Source of the DNA: Denitrovibrio sp.
GTDB lineage: Bacteria; Chrysiogenota; Deferribacteres; Deferribacterales; Geovibrionaceae
Reading direction: 5' to 3'
Length of the DNA stretch: 64,000 bases
NCBI GenBank assembly: GCA_002869145.1
Contig: PKTM01000011.1
Location: forward strand, 262,236-326,235
In this document: piece by piece, positions 6,335 through 22,533 of the stretch
Numbering within the stretch: position 1 is the first letter of the stretch
How the letters are laid out: each line of letters opens with the position of its first letter
Position numbers and translations under genes: made by a program
Notes under the pieces: generated by a model
Database searches by the model: none
What the model was told of the DNA's origin: nothing
Seen by the model: only the letters and a program-made list of their open reading frames with translations

Positions 6335-7192
6335 TTATTTGCAAAATCTTATGGAAGACGCTTCTGAGCGTGCTCCGCCGCCTGTAGCATATACAATTAT
6401 AGAGAGGCAGTTGTCAAACTCTTTCTGATAAACAGTGTAAGTAAGTGCTGTTTCGAATGTTTCACATGAATCATTTTCACAAACCTGAACCTCATAACCA
6501 GTCGCTTTTGAAGAGTCCCAGAATATCCTGAGCTCATTATCGAACTTCACTGCACTGAGCCCTTTGACTGGTTGGTTTTCAGGAAGAGTTTGTTCAGATG
6601 TCAGGTCTATGCTGTAAGCAGGACCTTTGTTTCCAAATTTATCTGTGAGCACAATGCTTAGTCTGCTGCTGAGTGACTCAAGCGGTGCAGTCATGGTGTT
6701 TTTTCCAGTCTGTATTATACTTTTATCACCAGAAAAAAGATCCATCCTCAGAAATGGTTCGGAGGTGGTAACTTTTATATGAAGGATATCTGAATTCCTT
6801 TCAAGCTCTGCTGATATCACTTTGGGAGGTTTGCTGTATGTCACCTGTTTCACCACAGAATCAGATACCATACCATAATTTATAGTTTTCGCTGTTAGCC
6901 TGTAGTTGTAAACGTTTCCTTCGCTGACATCTTTGTCAAGAAATGTCTCTTTTGGGTCTATAATCTTGAGTTTGCTGTATTCGGAGCAGACTTCATCTTT
7001 AACAACGGCTTTTTCCACCAGAAGATACATATCTTCGCTGTTTGCTATGAGCACTCCATTATCTGTGGCAGAAACCGTAAAGTTCTCGGGGCGTGAGGCA
7101 CGCTCAAGTGAATCTTTAGCCACTGGGTCTGTCTTTTTACCACAGGAGAAAGCAAAAATTGTCACGAAAAGGATTAAACTAATATATTTCAT
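6335..7192 (-). CDS. Putative lipoprotein with fibronectin-III-like folds
   Basis: 285 residues. The N-terminus [20 protein letters not shown] is a lipoprotein signal with lipobox FAFSC and acceptor Cys17, so the mature protein should be lipid-anchored in the envelope. The rest is beta-rich and reads like two or three fibronectin-III-type modules (for example [20 protein letters not shown], then GYEVQVC). A short lipoprotein next to argH is a common arrangement in Gram-negative genomes, but this is a longer unrelated-looking one. Its start overlaps the end of argH by 14 bases, suggesting translational coupling. Function is unknown. Confidence 0.8.
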
Positions 7193-8564
7193 TTAAAAAT
7201 TTCTTTGCAGAGTTTAATTGTTCTACTACTGAGCTTTTCGCTGTACCGCCGTATGCGCTTCTGCTGTTAACGGAGGCTCTGACTGTTATAAACTGATAGA
7301 TGTCTTCGGTTATCACATCGGTAAATTTTGAAAACTCATCAAGTGACAGCTCTGACAAATCTGCCCCTTTTTCTATAGCATAAGCTACAGCAGAACCCAC
7401 TATATGATGACACTGGCGAAACGGAAGTCCCTTGCGCACAAGATAATCAGCAAGGTCTGTGGCAGTGGAATATCCTGCACCTGCACTCTTTTCCATCTTA
7501 GCAGGCTTCAGTTTCATCTTTCCAACCATAGGAGCAAATATCTTAAGCGATGCCTTTAGTGTGTCAAGAGCGTCAAATACCGGCTCTTTGTCTTCCTGCA
7601 TGTCTTTGTTATATGCAAGAGGAAGCCCTTTCATGGTGGTAAGCATGCTTATGAGCGAGCCGTACACTCTGCCTGTTTTGCCTCTGATAAGCTCAGGCAT
7701 GTCAGGATTTTTCTTCTGCGGCATAATGGATGAGCCTGTGCAGAAATCGTCTGACAACTCTATAAAGTCAAACTCCGAAGTGGAGTAAATTATTAATTCT
7801 TCTGAAAACCGGGACATATGCATCTGGCATATAGAGGCCGCTGAAAGAAACTCAATGGCAAAATCCCTGTCAGAAACAGAGTCCAGACTGTTCTCGGTGG
7901 GAGCTTTAAACCCAAGCTCTTTTGCCGTGAAATGTCTGTCTATGTCAAATGTGGTTCCCGCCAGAGCGCCAGCTCCAAGAGGACAGTAGTCCATTCTGTG
8001 CAGGCAGTCCTCAAAACGGGTGAAATCTCTCTTAAGCATTTGAAAATATGCCATCAGCCAGTGTGCAAAAAGTATTGGCTGCGCTGTTTGAAGATGTGTG
8101 AAGCCGGGCATCATGGTCTCTTTATCCATGTCAGCCTTCTCAGTGATTGCTTTTAAAAGTTCTGCAAGCAGTGCCTGTATCTCAATTATTTCAGATTTCA
8201 TATACATGCGGAAATCAACAGCCACCTGATCGTTTCTGCTTCTTGCTGTGTGCAGGCGTTTACCTGCATCTCCGACTATCTCGGTAAGCCGCTTTTCGAT
8301 AGCCATATGAATGTCTTCGTCTTCCGTTTTCCACTGGAATCTGCCGGATTCTATTTCGGTTAATACCTGTTCCAGACCACTTATGATATCATCTCTGTCC
8401 TTGTCAGATATTATCTTCTGTTTAGCCAGCATCTTAGCATGTGCAATGCTGCCTTTTATGTCGTATTTATAAAATCTGTTATCAAAATGAACAGAAGCGT
8501 TGAACTCTTCTACAAATTTATCTGTTGGGAGTGTGAATCTCCCCGACCACATCTTTTCAGACAT
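7179..8564 (-). CDS. argH: Argininosuccinate lyase
   Basis: Last step of arginine synthesis: argininosuccinate to arginine and fumarate. 461 residues, normal length. The fumarase/aspartase superfamily signature is [12 protein letters not shown] with the catalytic serine, and other family blocks are MWSGRF at the N-terminus, [10 protein letters not shown] and [16 protein letters not shown]-containing ribosome site lies 12 bases before ATG. First gene of a run with the lipoprotein gene (14-base overlap) and der. No other arg gene is in the window. Confidence 0.97.
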
Positions 8565-17222: not shown

Positions 17223-20200
17223 TTATTGCCAGTCTTTAAGGAACTGGCGGAACTCTTCCAGAGGCATGGGTTTGCCGAAAAAATATCCCTGAACAATATT
17301 GCACCCCATCTGCTTCAGAAGCTCCACCTGAGCTTCAGTCTCAGCGCCCTCTGCCACAACGCTTATGCCAAGGCTTTTCGCCATAAGTATAACCGAAGAT
17401 ACTATGGATTCGTTCTCAGCATCGCTGTCAATATAGTCTACAAAACTTTTATCTATCTTCAATGTGCTGATAGGCATCTTTTTAAGGTAGCTTATAGAGC
17501 TGTACCCTGTTCCGAAATCATCTATGGCGAATTTGAGATTCATTTTACTCATCTCATTCATTACATAAGATATTTTGTTAAGATCTTCGGTGAATATGTT
17601 CTCTGTAATTTCAAATTCAAAGTATTTGCCGTTAAGTCCGTTTTCCTCAAGAGTCTTACTTACAATACTTATAATATCTTTTTTCATAAACTGTCTGATG
17701 CTAAGGTTAACAGCAATTTTTAGATTATTAAAACCCTCGCTGTGAAGCAAGACAGTATCTTTTATGGACTGCTCCATAACCCATTGCCCAATAGGAAGAA
17801 TAAGGCCGTTCTCCTCTGCTAAAGGGATAAATGTGGAAGGCGGAACATTTCCCAGCTCAGGATTATTCCACCTGAGAAGTGCTTCCATCCCCATTACCTG
17901 CATATCAGCCAGATCAATCTTCGGCTGATAAAAGACAGTAAATTCTTCGTTTTGAATGGCTCTGTTCAGTTTTGATTCCAGCAGAAGTCTGTTCTTCAGT
18001 GCGCTGTCCATCCCTGCGGTATAGGTCTGGATGTTGTTTCGTCCTTTCTGCTTTGCCTGATACATGGCTATTTCAGCGTTTTTTATCAACTCGGAGGCGC
18101 TTCTTCCGTTTTCAGGGTAGTGGCAAAGTCCAGCGCTCATATGTATAAAAAGTTCATAGTCCTGAAGAATAATAGGTCTGTAAACGCTGTCAATCAGTCT
18201 TTTTGACTTATGAGCTGCATCCTCTTTATTTTTAAGCTCGGTGAACAGAACAGCAAACTCATCTCCGCTGAGTCTGGCACAGAAAGAGGTTGGTTTAAGC
18301 CTATTTTTAATGCGTTCTGCTATGATCTCAAGCACTCTGTCCCCAGTGGCGTGACCTAATGTGTCGTTCAGGTTTTTGAAATTATCTATATCCAGAAAAA
18401 GTATAGCGGTATGGGAGTATCCGTCGTTTTCCTCTATGGTCTCTTGTAGCTTTGACATGAAAAAATTTCTATTCGGAAGTCCAGTGAGGTTGTCGTGGGT
18501 CGCCTGATATTTTATGCGGTCTTCATATGTTTTTCGCTCGGTGATGTCGTGTGAGGAGGTAGTGAAATTTATAAGCTTACCCTCACTGTTTTTTATACCT
18601 GAAATGGTCATTATTACCGGAGTGAACTTGCCGGATTTGCTCTTCATCCAGAGCTCGCCGCTCCAGTGACTGTCTTTGATGAGATTTCTGATTATACTAG
18701 CATAAAATTCATCCGAGTGTTTTTCACAGCGAAACATATTAGCATTCTGCCCCAAAAGCTCATTTGCATTATAGCCCGTCATATTTATAAATGCCGAGTT
18801 ACATGAGACAATGTAGCCGGATGGGTCTATTATAGTCATTCCGTCATGGGCGTTTTCGAAGACTTTCGATGCAAGCTCCATCTCCTGTTCTGCTTTTTTC
18901 CGCTTAGTAATGTCAACTCCCTGAAGTATTGTCCCTGAGTATTGCGAGTCGGTAAAAACATCTGTGATATTCCAGAGTATATAACGTTCTTCCCCTGTTT
19001 TGTTATTTGTAATAGTAGACTCAAACCGCGAAGACTTGTAAGTTGATGCCACTGGTACAGTAAGCTGAGGGAAAAGAGAGTAGATGCTGCTGATATGTTT
19101 ACCTGTGACATCTTCCGATGAAAGCCCAGACAGTTTTTCCAGTGCATAGTTGAAAATACTTATATTGCCGTTTTTATCCCAAACAGAGATGGGGGCATAA
19201 GCGCTGTTTATAAGATTTTTCAGATATGCCTGTGTTTCAGACAGGTCTTCATTTACCGTGGATATGTGGTTTGCCAGAAGGTTAAACTCAAATATAACTG
19301 AGTCTTTGTAAATGCTGAAAGTTTCACCGGAAAGAACATCTTTTGTGTAGTCTACAAGTCTGTAAAGCGACTTTACTGTTGTCAGGTTTACTATATAGCC
19401 AAGCAGTATGGAGGTAGCTAAAACAAGGAATATTGTCAGGTATGCCATTATGCGGTACTGCCTGCTTACGTTGGAGATAAATGATTCCGGCATGCTCTGG
19501 TAAAATTTCAAGGTTATGCTGTTTCCTTTAAGAGTGATATCTGAACAGTCCAGGAGATGGTCATTGTTGAAAATGACCTTAGTTTGGTTGTAGCAGCTTT
19601 TGATTACCTCGTTCTTATCCCTTTTTATATTTCCGGTTATGACGGAATCGCCATAAATGATGGCCGCTTCGCTTATGGACGCAGTCTCTAGAATCTCATT
19701 CAAAAGTTCGTCTGAATTGTTCAGTATGGTTCCGATGTAGAAGTATCCCGCCAGTTCACCTGTTGTCTGGCTTACCCCTTTAGCAGCACCGGTGAGTGCC
19801 AGAAGAGTTCCTTTGCTAGATTCGGACTGAATTAGACTCACGTCTTGGTTCAGAAAGATGTTGTTTGCTACCATATATTTTTTTATATAACTGGTGTCAA
19901 AAAACGGTGAGCTTGCATCAAAGAGATAGTTCCCATCCACTGAGCGAAAGAAGAAGATGTCTATGTTGTCGGCAAAGGATTTATCGTATAGGTTCAGCAC
20001 TTCACTTTCAAAAGAGTTGATATCGCCATTAAGCAGAAGATCAGTTTTTTGAGAAAAGATATACTGCATGTCGTGTACTGCGTTAGCTAAGATTGCTGCC
20101 TTTTTTTCTAATATCATCTGGGCAATTCGGCTGTTAGCGCTGGTAAGCTCTTCTGATTTATCCAGAAATTCATTTTTGACAAACTTGTCACCCACCAGAT

Positions 20201-20246
20201 ACATAGTTATGGATAAGATGAGTGCCATTATGACTATTGCAGACAT
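17223..20246 (-). CDS. LuxQ-like membrane sensor with PAS-PAS-GGDEF-EAL output
   Basis: 1007 residues, inner membrane. TM1 about 1-20, periplasmic domain 21-265, TM2 266-287, helical linker, PAS about 345-450 and 460-570, GGDEF about 580-740, EAL about 755-1000. The periplasmic part (DNIDIFFFRSVDG, later GELAGYFYIGTILNN) resembles the LuxQ periplasmic domain. GGDEF reads RLSGDEF (residues about 660-664), close to functional, with no RxxD inhibitory site. The EAL part has EALLRW, EITE, DDFGTGYSS, KIDKSF and VVAEGAET, so phosphodiesterase activity is likely. ATG 20246 lies 35 bases after the luxP-like stop; it leaves a short N-terminal tail before TM1 and has only a weak ribosome site. The frame is open further upstream but has no ATG, GTG or TTG. 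Its partner is the LuxP-type protein just upstream. Confidence 0.88.
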   Translation of the reverse strand: MSAIVIMALILSITMYLVGDKFVKNEFLDKSEELTSANSRIAQMILEKKAAILANAVHDMQYIFSQKTDLLLNGDINSFESEVLNLYDKSFADNIDIFFFRSVDGNYLFDASSPFFDTSYIKKYMVANNIFLNQDVSLIQSESSKGTLLALTGAAKGVSQTTGELAGYFYIGTILNNSDELLNEILETASISEAAIIYGDSVITGNIKRDKNEVIKSCYNQTKVIFNNDHLLDCSDITLKGNSITLKFYQSMPESFISNVSRQYRIMAYLTIFLVLATSILLGYIVNLTTVKSLYRLVDYTKDVLSGETFSIYKDSVIFEFNLLANHISTVNEDLSETQAYLKNLINSAYAPISVWDKNGNISIFNYALEKLSGLSSEDVTGKHISSIYSLFPQLTVPVASTYKSSRFESTITNNKTGEERYILWNITDVFTDSQYSGTILQGVDITKRKKAEQEMELASKVFENAHDGMTIIDPSGYIVSCNSAFINMTGYNANELLGQNANMFRCEKHSDEFYASIIRNLIKDSHWSGELWMKSKSGKFTPVIMTISGIKNSEGKLINFTTSSHDITERKTYEDRIKYQATHDNLTGLPNRNFFMSKLQETIEENDGYSHTAILFLDIDNFKNLNDTLGHATGDRVLEIIAERIKNRLKPTSFCARLSGDEFAVLFTELKNKEDAAHKSKRLIDSVYRPIILQDYELFIHMSAGLCHYPENGRSASELIKNAEIAMYQAKQKGRNNIQTYTAGMDSALKNRLLLESKLNRAIQNEEFTVFYQPKIDLADMQVMGMEALLRWNNPELGNVPPSTFIPLAEENGLILPIGQWVMEQSIKDTVLLHSEGFNNLKIAVNLSIRQFMKKDIISIVSKTLEENGLNGKYFEFEITENIFTEDLNKISYVMNEMSKMNLKFAIDDFGTGYSSISYLKKMPISTLKIDKSFVDYIDSDAENESIVSSVILMAKSLGISVVAEGAETEAQVELLKQMGCNIVQGYFFGKPMPLEEFRQFLKDWQ

Positions 20247-20281
20247 GAAAATGGTGTAAAGTCTAAATCCCTTTCCCGAGG

Positions 20282-21397
20282 TTATCTTCCAGAATATCTT
20301 AGTGCCCTCTCTGTAAGTCTATTTATTATATCAGGGTTCATATCACTTGTAATGGTAGCAAATTCGCCGCTGAAAATCCTTGGAGTTTTATCAGTTTCGC
20401 CAATCATGTCCATTTTTATTGCTTCAGCAATGGCAACACCGCTGTCATCGGTCATCCTCATAATGGTGAAGTCAAGTTTACCGATTTTTATAAGCTCAAG
20501 CTCCTGTTTTGCTCCGCCCCATCCGTTTAAAGCAATTTCACCGGTGAGACCGGCATCTTCCAGAGCTTTTGCAGCACCTATGGCAATATCGGTAGAGCAC
20601 GCGTATATAAAAGAGAATTTGTCACCGCGTTTTAGAGATTTCATCACAGAATCGTAAGCCTTTTCTGAACTGAAATTTGTGTAAAACTTTGCCACAGGGC
20701 TAAGTCCTTTGGAGAGTGCGTAAAGCTCAAAGCCTTTCCCCCGCTGTTCGCTGACAGTGCCGTTTGACCCGTAAAGCATAAGATATGATGCACCATCCGG
20801 AAAAAGGCTGCTGTATTTCTCAGCTATCATCCGTGCGCCTTGCAGGTGATCAAACCCAACATACATGAATGGGGGAGTGTCTTCCCATCTTTCGAACGGT
20901 GTAGTCAGATTTTGTATGAAGACTTTAGGTTTTCCGCTGGCGAGGGTTGCTGTTATCAGCCTTTTGATGTTTTCATTATCTACCGACACCGCCACATAAT
21001 CCACATCGCTCTTCAAAACTTCTGAAAGCTGTAAAGCCTGTCTTCTGAAATTGCCTGAAGGTTTGCTGAAATATGTAAGGATTTCGTGCGGAATGTTTAG
21101 TTCATCAAGCCTTTTTGACATTGCCTTTACACTGCTGCGCCAGTAGTCGGATTTTTGTATTCCGGGATAAATAGCTGCAACTTTAACAGTTTTTGATGGC
21201 CGCTCTTGTATTGGGGATGCAGGGGATGAGACAATTTCTTTAAAACTATTCATAAGTCCGCTTTCAGAAGGGTGTCCTGAAATAAAAAGGTCTATAGGGA
21301 TATATTTATCATTTTCGGCGCTGAAAACCGGCATGAATGAAAATAATAAAAAAACTAAAACAGTAAAAATTTTTTCAACAGGCAGCAGATATTTCAT
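20282..21397 (-). CDS. luxP: LuxP-type periplasmic autoinducer-2 binding protein
   Basis: 371 residues with a signal peptide (about 1-26, ending PVFSA). It is a type I periplasmic binding protein strongly like Vibrio LuxP: KSDYWR, IQNLTTPFERW, YVGFDHLQGAR, IYACSTDIAIGAAKALE, NGWGGA and MRMTDDSG. Residues matching the recalled AI-2 contacts of V. harveyi LuxP are all present: Gln81, Ser83, Trp86, Asn163, Arg219, Ser268, Thr269, Asp270, Trp293, Arg314, at a near-constant offset of three to four. The gene for a membrane sensor with a LuxQ-like periplasmic domain follows after 35 bases. No luxS is in the window, so the source of AI-2 (self or foreign) is open. A ribose-type sugar-binding protein is the alternative, but the residue match argues for AI-2. 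Confidence 0.9.
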   Translation of the reverse strand: MKYLLPVEKIFTVLVFLLFSFMPVFSAENDKYIPIDLFISGHPSESGLMNSFKEIVSSPASPIQERPSKTVKVAAIYPGIQKSDYWRSSVKAMSKRLDELNIPHEILTYFSKPSGNFRRQALQLSEVLKSDVDYVAVSVDNENIKRLITATLASGKPKVFIQNLTTPFERWEDTPPFMYVGFDHLQGARMIAEKYSSLFPDGASYLMLYGSNGTVSEQRGKGFELYALSKGLSPVAKFYTNFSSEKAYDSVMKSLKRGDKFSFIYACSTDIAIGAAKALEDAGLTGEIALNGWGGAKQELELIKIGKLDFTIMRMTDDSGVAIAEAIKMDMIGETDKTPRIFSGEFATITSDMNPDIINRLTERALRYSGR

Positions 21398-21435: not shown

Positions 21436-22533
21436 TTAAAAGTCTTTTACTTTGTAATTGCCTCTGGAAAAGAACACCGCATAAAGAAAAAGCATATATA
21501 TGGCTATTGTAAAGAGGGCGGCGTAAGGGTTGAAAACTGAAAATGGCGCAAGCACTCCAACTATTAGCCAGTGCAGAAATATTGCCGGGCCAGAGTGTAG
21601 CATTATAGGAAAATCTCTGAACCTGCATATAACTGCAAGCCCGCTTATGTTCCAGCCGTAAAGTGCAAGTGTCCTGTGGTAAAGCATTGTCAGATCTTTA
21701 TAAAAAGGATCTGTATAGCCCGAAGCGTATATTAAAATATATGCAACACCAGAGATGGACGTCATGAGCAGAAATATTATGCCTGATGTGAGATACGCCT
21801 TTTGCTGTTCTTTGATCCCAAGTTTTATGTATAGAAAAAGCACACATGAGACGGCAAAAAAAAGTATGAGCGATATTACAAGCTCAAGATATATAGCTTC
21901 AAAAAGTATAAAAGCAAAAAAGATGATAACTCCCATAGTTATTGTCCAGAAGCATATTACCTTCAGGTTACGGTAAAAATTGCTCCCCGCCTTGTGCATG
22001 GTTGTGAACATTACGCTTAAGGATATAAGTGAAACGGGGAAGGAGAACCCAAGAAAAAAAGTGTTTAGTGTAAGTTTTTCCGATTGAATAAAAATGTAGT
22101 ATTCCTGATTTATTATAGCGATGATAGATATAAGAAGCCCTGTGGATAGGCAAAGCAGAGATGCATGGTGAAATTTCTGTGCTGTTGTCACTTTTCTGGT
22201 GAAGAAGTCTTTAGGGAAGAAGTCGAACTTCATGTTTCTCACAGATTCTACAATAAAAAATAGAACTAGCGACACAGCTATAGCCGCAGCGTAATACTCA
22301 AAAAAAGCTAGAAATGCATATACAAAAGAGAGTGTGAGAAAAAGATATAGGCGCTTGGTCATTCGCCCTTTATCCATGGTGAAATAAAGTATTATGGTTC
22401 CGCCGGTGCACAGGTTAAAAAGAAAAATGTGCAGTCTTTCAAAGTTGTATCCCTGAATGAAATGATGCATAAACCCGAATGAGAGAGCTATGGTCATTAT
22501 AATCATAAAAGTCAGACGCAGCCTTCCGCTCAT
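21436..22533 (-). CDS. Polytopic membrane protein of unknown function
   Basis: 365 residues with roughly ten hydrophobic segments spread over the whole length and short loops, an inner-membrane protein. No family motif was recognised. A few histidines near membrane ends (MHHFIQGY, QKFHHASLL) and an FHH/HH pattern hint at a possible metal or heme role, but this is weak. Its start overlaps the stop of the TIGR01777-type oxidoreductase by four bases (ATGA), so the two are translationally coupled and probably act together. The luxP-like gene begins 38 bases downstream. Confidence 0.8.
   Translation of the reverse strand: MSGRLRLTFMIIMTIALSFGFMHHFIQGYNFERLHIFLFNLCTGGTIILYFTMDKGRMTKRLYLFLTLSFVYAFLAFFEYYAAAIAVSLVLFFIVESVRNMKFDFFPKDFFTRKVTTAQKFHHASLLCLSTGLLISIIAIINQEYYIFIQSEKLTLNTFFLGFSFPVSLISLSVMFTTMHKAGSNFYRNLKVICFWTITMGVIIFFAFILFEAIYLELVISLILFFAVSCVLFLYIKLGIKEQQKAYLTSGIIFLLMTSISGVAYILIYASGYTDPFYKDLTMLYHRTLALYGWNISGLAVICRFRDFPIMLHSGPAIFLHWLIVGVLAPFSVFNPYAALFTIAIYMLFLYAVFFSRGNYKVKDF

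Follow-up and report, generated by a model that had tools for sequence, protein, structure and literature searches.

The closest described relatives of the locus analyzed here are the LuxP/LuxQ receptors of Vibrio, in which the AI-2-binding protein LuxP acts with a hybrid histidine kinase, LuxQ, that feeds LuxU and LuxO. The locus lies in a 64,000-nucleotide stretch of Denitrovibrio DNA (hereafter the window, meaning the whole stretch that was analyzed). It resembles the Vibrio system in the family of its binding protein, in the AI-2 pocket of that protein, in the LuxQ fold of the periplasmic domain of the partner, in the two transmembrane (TM) helices of the partner, and in the luxP-luxQ gene order. 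It differs in having a PAS-PAS-GGDEF-EAL output where the Vibrio receptor has its hybrid kinase.

Other described systems share parts of this design. In NspS-MbaA of V. cholerae, the gene for a binding protein likewise immediately precedes that for a membrane GGDEF-EAL protein, which also carries the motif SGDEF, and NspS is reported to switch MbaA (an SGDEF-EVL sensor) between phosphodiesterase and cyclase (PMC8079147). However, NspS binds polyamines, an unrelated ligand, whereas the binding protein of the window belongs to the LuxP family; the two systems resemble each other in how they work and not in family. A one-step route from AI-2 to c-di-GMP is also found in the dCache diguanylate cyclase rpHK1S-Z16 (PMC7584622) and in YeaJ of Salmonella (Enterobacterales), but there the dCache_1 domain of the former binds AI-2 directly and without LuxP, and the GAPES1 sensor domain of the latter does so without a separate binding protein. 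The dCache receptors of the rpHK1S-Z16 study prefer boron-free AI-2 (PMC7584622).

We found no description in the open-access literature of LuxP, or of a LuxQ periplasmic domain, paired with GGDEF. Reviews up to 2026, on c-di-GMP sensing (PMC8846402), AI-2 (PMC12834153) and quorum sensing (PMC13220807), present LuxP with a kinase only, as the input of a Vibrio phosphorelay, or not at all. A census of 2016 counted 115 proteins with a LuxQ periplasmic domain, 112 of them kinases and one a c-di-GMP enzyme (PMC4822843), so that the architecture was visible at that time as a single database entry. According to a survey of 2018, LuxP is confined to Vibrionales and Oceanospirillales; the Deferribacteres that it covered had none (PMC6022435). 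The available text of a further study of LuxP proteins speaks of transport into the cell and mentions no GGDEF-EAL partner (PMC12268683). The first-pass annotation of this DNA had seen here a candidate for an undescribed system; its parts are of known kinds, and their combination, together with its breadth, appears to be undescribed in the open literature.

The LuxP homologue and its pocket

The luxP homologue (positions 20,282 to 21,397, minus strand) encodes 371 amino acids, predicted from phmmer, an AF2 model and alignments to form a periplasmic binding protein of the AI-2 type. It matches V. harveyi LuxP (1jx6/1zhh) over nearly its full length at 259 bits (phmmer, E = 3e-76). Among proteins of known structure, four distinct V. 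harveyi LuxP sequences are its best-scoring relatives, and a sugar-binding protein comes next at E 8e-13. The AF2 model (pLDDT 90.5) superposes on AI-2-bound LuxP along the full length of 1jx6 at an rmsd of 1.4 Å (E 8e-36; TM-score on the target 0.96), and ribose-type binding proteins match its fold at E 2e-17 or weaker. An identity as ribose-binding protein was rejected because LuxP leads the ribose proteins by at least 17 orders of magnitude when folds are compared by E-value, and by far more in sequence.

The AI-2 contacts, which had been read from the letters as present at a near-constant offset, were all recovered by alignment. The ten residues of the homologue (Q81, S83, Y85, W86, N163, R219, T269, D270, W293 and R314) stand at an offset of +4 from those of V. 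harveyi LuxP, or +3 for T266 and D267, and include both borate-facing arginines. Three of the reference residues, Y81, D267 and W289, we take to be AI-2 contacts. The other seven (Q77, S79, W82, N159, R215, T266 and R310) have been listed from 1JX6 (PMC9687752). All ten sites are invariant in nine Deferribacterota LuxP sequences, and none is conserved in fewer than 86 of 87 aligned LuxP sequences, an alignment with a mean column identity of 60%. Given the E-value of the match and ten invariant or nearly invariant sites where no more than 53 of 308 columns are at least 95% identical, the sequence comparison places both the match and the conservation of the pocket far beyond chance. The whole pocket on which the initial reading depended is kept and, as judged by sequence and model together, the luxP product of the window is a true LuxP homologue.

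The sensor protein: input and output

Exactly 35 bases separate luxP from the sensor gene downstream of it (17,223 to 20,246, minus strand), an adjacency that the first-pass annotation had placed correctly to the base. The sensor, defined by its ORF, Pfam and NCBIfam, has 1007 amino acids, counted from a first ATG that may not be the true start, since the 5-10 bases ahead of it contain no good ribosome site and relatives begin slightly upstream. Upstream of luxP, the ORF list and Pfam place a membrane protein without a Pfam match (21,436 to 22,533, minus strand); the order of this gene and luxP is kept in two other genomes of the same genus, and the two possibly belong to one operon.

The two TM helices of the sensor (about residues 1-23 and 264-291) stand on either side of a periplasmic double-Cache domain of LuxQ type (about residues 24-263; 19,458 to 20,177, minus strand), as assigned by PF09308, AF2 and fold matches. 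The LuxQ-periplasm family (PF09308) scores 29.6 bits in the whole sensor against a cut-off of 25.7, and 33.3 bits on the periplasmic part alone. The NCBIfam equivalog of the LuxQ sensor kinase (LuxQ_Vibrio, NF041947) reaches 117.7 bits, against a cut-off of 1200, over residues 4-464, a stretch that takes in the periplasmic part and the first PAS domain. The sensor therefore fails it, as expected of a protein that lacks the kinase part and has GGDEF-EAL where the histidine kinase would be.

For an AF2 model of residues 1-300 (pLDDT 88.8), the first six places among PDB fold matches go to LuxQ from V. cholerae and V. harveyi, in each case to its periplasmic domain (E 1e-10 to 2e-9); other dCache domains follow from E 2e-6. 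A generic dCache match was rejected, since every other dCache structure trails those of LuxQ by three to four orders of magnitude. The match is modest in sequence, with about 13% identity in the LuxQ fold match; profile and fold nonetheless agree on the LuxQ-like periplasmic domain that had been proposed. LuxQ-periplasm is matched by 30 of 30 GGDEF-EAL partners of LuxP from diverse genomes (N-termini scanned, E 0.01 or better).

These observations bear on whether the two proteins form a receptor at all. The genes could be co-inherited neighbors, LuxP serving a transporter while the membrane protein senses a ligand of its own by its Cache domain. Cache domains often bind ligands directly, and a distant LuxP-like protein of Ruegeria pomeroyi, which keeps six of the ten contacts, adjoins an ABC transporter. 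However, among the ORFs of the window no transporter genes adjoin luxP, the LuxQ-type Cache subtype recurs in every tested GGDEF-EAL partner encoded next to LuxP, and the pairing persists whether the output is a kinase, GGDEF-EAL or SpoIIE (see below). We therefore regard mere co-inheritance as very improbable.

Pfam confirmed the proposed cytoplasmic part, with PAS found twice and GGDEF-EAL in place of a histidine kinase. All its domains are on the minus strand: a first PAS domain (about residues 342-447; 18,906 to 19,223) recognized by PAS families in two stretches, a second PAS domain (about residues 461-575; 18,522 to 18,866; Pfam), the GGDEF domain (residues 582-738; 18,033 to 18,503; 153.6 bits) and the EAL domain (residues 759-993; 17,268 to 17,972; 239 bits). 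The GGDEF domain has the motif SGDEF, the metal and substrate residues and no RxxD inhibitory site, and the EAL domain has every catalytic residue; both catalytic sets are thus complete, as in bifunctional GGDEF-EAL enzymes. Across 39 GGDEF-EAL partners of LuxP, the EAL catalytic positions examined do not vary; one EAL motif has the form ESL. Thirty-six partners have an intact GGDEF motif (GGDEF, GGDEY or SGDEF) and three a degraded one (GGDGF, NADEF and NADEY), and a few further partners differ at other GGDEF metal or substrate positions. None of the 39 partners has a degraded EAL site, and the essential output is therefore probably a regulated phosphodiesterase activity. With about 12 matches to EAL and 5 to PilZ in the genome, c-di-GMP has targets in this organism.

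The pattern invites a narrower version of an AI-2 receptor with c-di-GMP output, compatible with the general one, in which AI-2 would regulate hydrolysis alone and the GGDEF domain would bind GTP as a regulator. The invariance of the EAL residues beside a GGDEF domain that varies among partners, as well as the missing RxxD site in the window sensor, is consistent with it. The window sensor has, however, SGDEF and all metal and substrate residues, like MbaA of V. cholerae, which needs its SGDEF domain (PMC8079147). We consider this restriction to hydrolysis possible but rather doubtful.

Distribution of the pair and source of the signal

The first-pass annotation had suggested looking for the gene pair in other genomes and for luxS elsewhere, and both searches were run. 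The pair is conserved in other genomes; that it might be unique to the Denitrovibrio genome was rejected, as it was found both in a phylum set of 51 genomes and in a scan of GTDB genome contigs. In the phylum set it occurs in seven genomes of the family of Denitrovibrio, this one included, and is absent from one genus of that family (g4). It also occurs, without PAS domains, in another family of Deferribacterota (G040), and a further genome (G019) has LuxP with a hybrid kinase. The GTDB scan gave 307 LuxP relatives. Partners were classified for the best 80 of the 307, a sample biased towards this query, so that its proportions differ from those of the whole LuxP family: luxP adjoins the gene of a GGDEF-EAL partner in 33 of these 80 closest loci (among them loci of Oceanospirillaceae, Halomonas, Stappiaceae and Zobellella), about 34 have a histidine kinase, one has a SpoIIE phosphatase and one a protein with a LuxQ periplasmic domain and PAS only. 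In the remainder the partner is unclassified or a contig end cuts the locus.

In the tree of LuxP, the c-di-GMP type of Deferribacterota forms one supported group, apart from those of Stappiaceae and of Oceanospirillaceae with Halomonas. The tree requires at least four changes between kinase and c-di-GMP types, with two loci (L055 and L098) labelled by position and not by domain scan. The GGDEF-EAL partners of Deferribacterota, of Stappiaceae, and of Oceanospirillaceae with Halomonas are also separate groups, with unrelated GGDEF-EAL proteins between them and weak deep forks; this output may have been recruited a single time or more than once.

The search for luxS found none in the Denitrovibrio genome, a difference from the phosphorelay quorum sensing of LuxPQ, and none in 13 related Deferribacterota genomes. 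SAH hydrolase is present in nine of nine LuxP-bearing Deferribacterota genomes. Given this combination, methyl-cycle recycling is not expected to yield AI-2. Outside the phylum, 31 genomes with the GGDEF-EAL pair divide into 14 with luxS (including Halomonas, most Marinobacterium, Pontibacterium, Amphritea and Zobellella) and 17 that lack it (including all Stappiaceae tested and most Neptuniibacter); as a control, luxS was found in seven of seven Vibrionaceae with kinase partners. Since its own genome has no luxS, the Denitrovibrio bacterium probably hears the AI-2 of its neighbors and would be a receiver only.

The natural ligand may differ from AI-2, as borate sugar diesters other than AI-2 can also occupy LuxP (PDB 4yr7). 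The same complex, with the same c-di-GMP output, could be a nutrient or boron-sugar sensor for another borate diester or a sugar of the habitat. The lack of luxS in the genome, the membership of the LuxP homologue in the sugar-binding Peripla_BP_4 family (Pfam), and crystal structures of LuxP with borate sugars other than AI-2 (4yr7, 4yp9) are compatible with such a role. On the other hand, the ten AI-2 contacts are shared by LuxP proteins as far apart as those of Vibrio and Deferribacterota, and luxS accompanies the pair in those 14 of 31 genomes outside the phylum. Furthermore, LuxP proteins from Proteobacteria and Deferribacterota, the exact ones unnamed in the available text, bound AI-2 in a published V. 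harveyi MM32 assay, retaining that of E. coli (PMC12268683). A ligand other than AI-2 seems to us improbable.

Proposed mechanism and significance

We consider it quite probable, from sequence comparison and structure models, that the locus encodes an AI-2 receptor of LuxP/LuxQ type with a one-step c-di-GMP output. The interpretation given in the first-pass annotation is thus supported overall, and nothing that it had named as speaking against it was found. LuxP would dock on the periplasmic domain of the sensor as in Vibrio LuxPQ; AI-2 would close LuxP and the receptor dimer would rearrange; the change would travel via the second TM helix and the PAS domains, and the balance between synthesis and hydrolysis of c-di-GMP would shift. 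The cell, its own luxS missing, would in this manner read AI-2 from other producers. That AI-2 lowers c-di-GMP is a guess that we hold at little better than even, drawn by analogy from the fact that AI-2 stops the LuxQ kinase.

We also lean towards the broader proposal of a second class of LuxP receptor, so far undescribed, in which AI-2 acts on c-di-GMP in one step through LuxQ-GGDEF-EAL proteins. The class would be widespread outside Vibrionaceae, would have arisen or been exchanged more than once and, in lineages without luxS (such as Deferribacterota and Stappiaceae), would be dedicated to listening to other species. If the pair works as proposed, AI-2 sensed by LuxP could set c-di-GMP, and hence whether cells attach or disperse, with neither a phosphorelay nor transcription in between, and bacteria unable to make AI-2 would possess a receiver specific to it. 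Whether AI-2 is an interspecies signal, long debated, would then become directly testable in tractable genera such as Halomonas, Marinobacterium and Stappia. Kinase, GGDEF-EAL and phosphatase outputs naturally swapped behind one input constitute, moreover, a ready set of receptors for studies of transmembrane signalling.

Gene context in the window's genus and its relatives

In genera g2 and g3 of the Deferribacterota, a stand-alone gene for a receiver domain lies immediately before luxP (L019-L022, from genomes G003, G004, G006 and G008), and in the window's genus that position is occupied by the gene at window 21436-22533, whose membrane-protein product matches no Pfam family. Within the window's genus, the pair is interrupted in genome G001 (locus L017), where an ORF at 7058-8458, a putative transposase given its transposase-like look, separates luxP from the GGDEF-EAL sensor gene on the strand opposite to both; the two genes are still open. 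The sensor gene of Denitrovibrio sp. BM704 (G002, locus L018; 7393-10491) carries a single in-frame TAA within the periplasmic domain. This stop codon is possibly an assembly error, since an epimerase gene nearby is likewise broken.

LuxP loci of other bacteria

The Vibrio fluvialis plasmid pIDH5335-3 (L114), typed as mobilizable in its record, carries the whole luxPQ kinase pair. A LuxP-like protein encoded on the Ruegeria pomeroyi megaplasmid (L113, 3878-5032; about 25% identity) keeps 6 of the 10 AI-2 pocket residues, including both arginines, and its gene adjoins ABC transporter genes. Its ligand may be a molecule related to AI-2.

A SpoIIE output

In Desulfococcaceae bacterium HSG9 (L045, 6215-8458), the LuxP partner joins a LuxQ-type periplasmic domain to a PAS domain and a SpoIIE phosphatase domain, and is a third output type for the same LuxP input.
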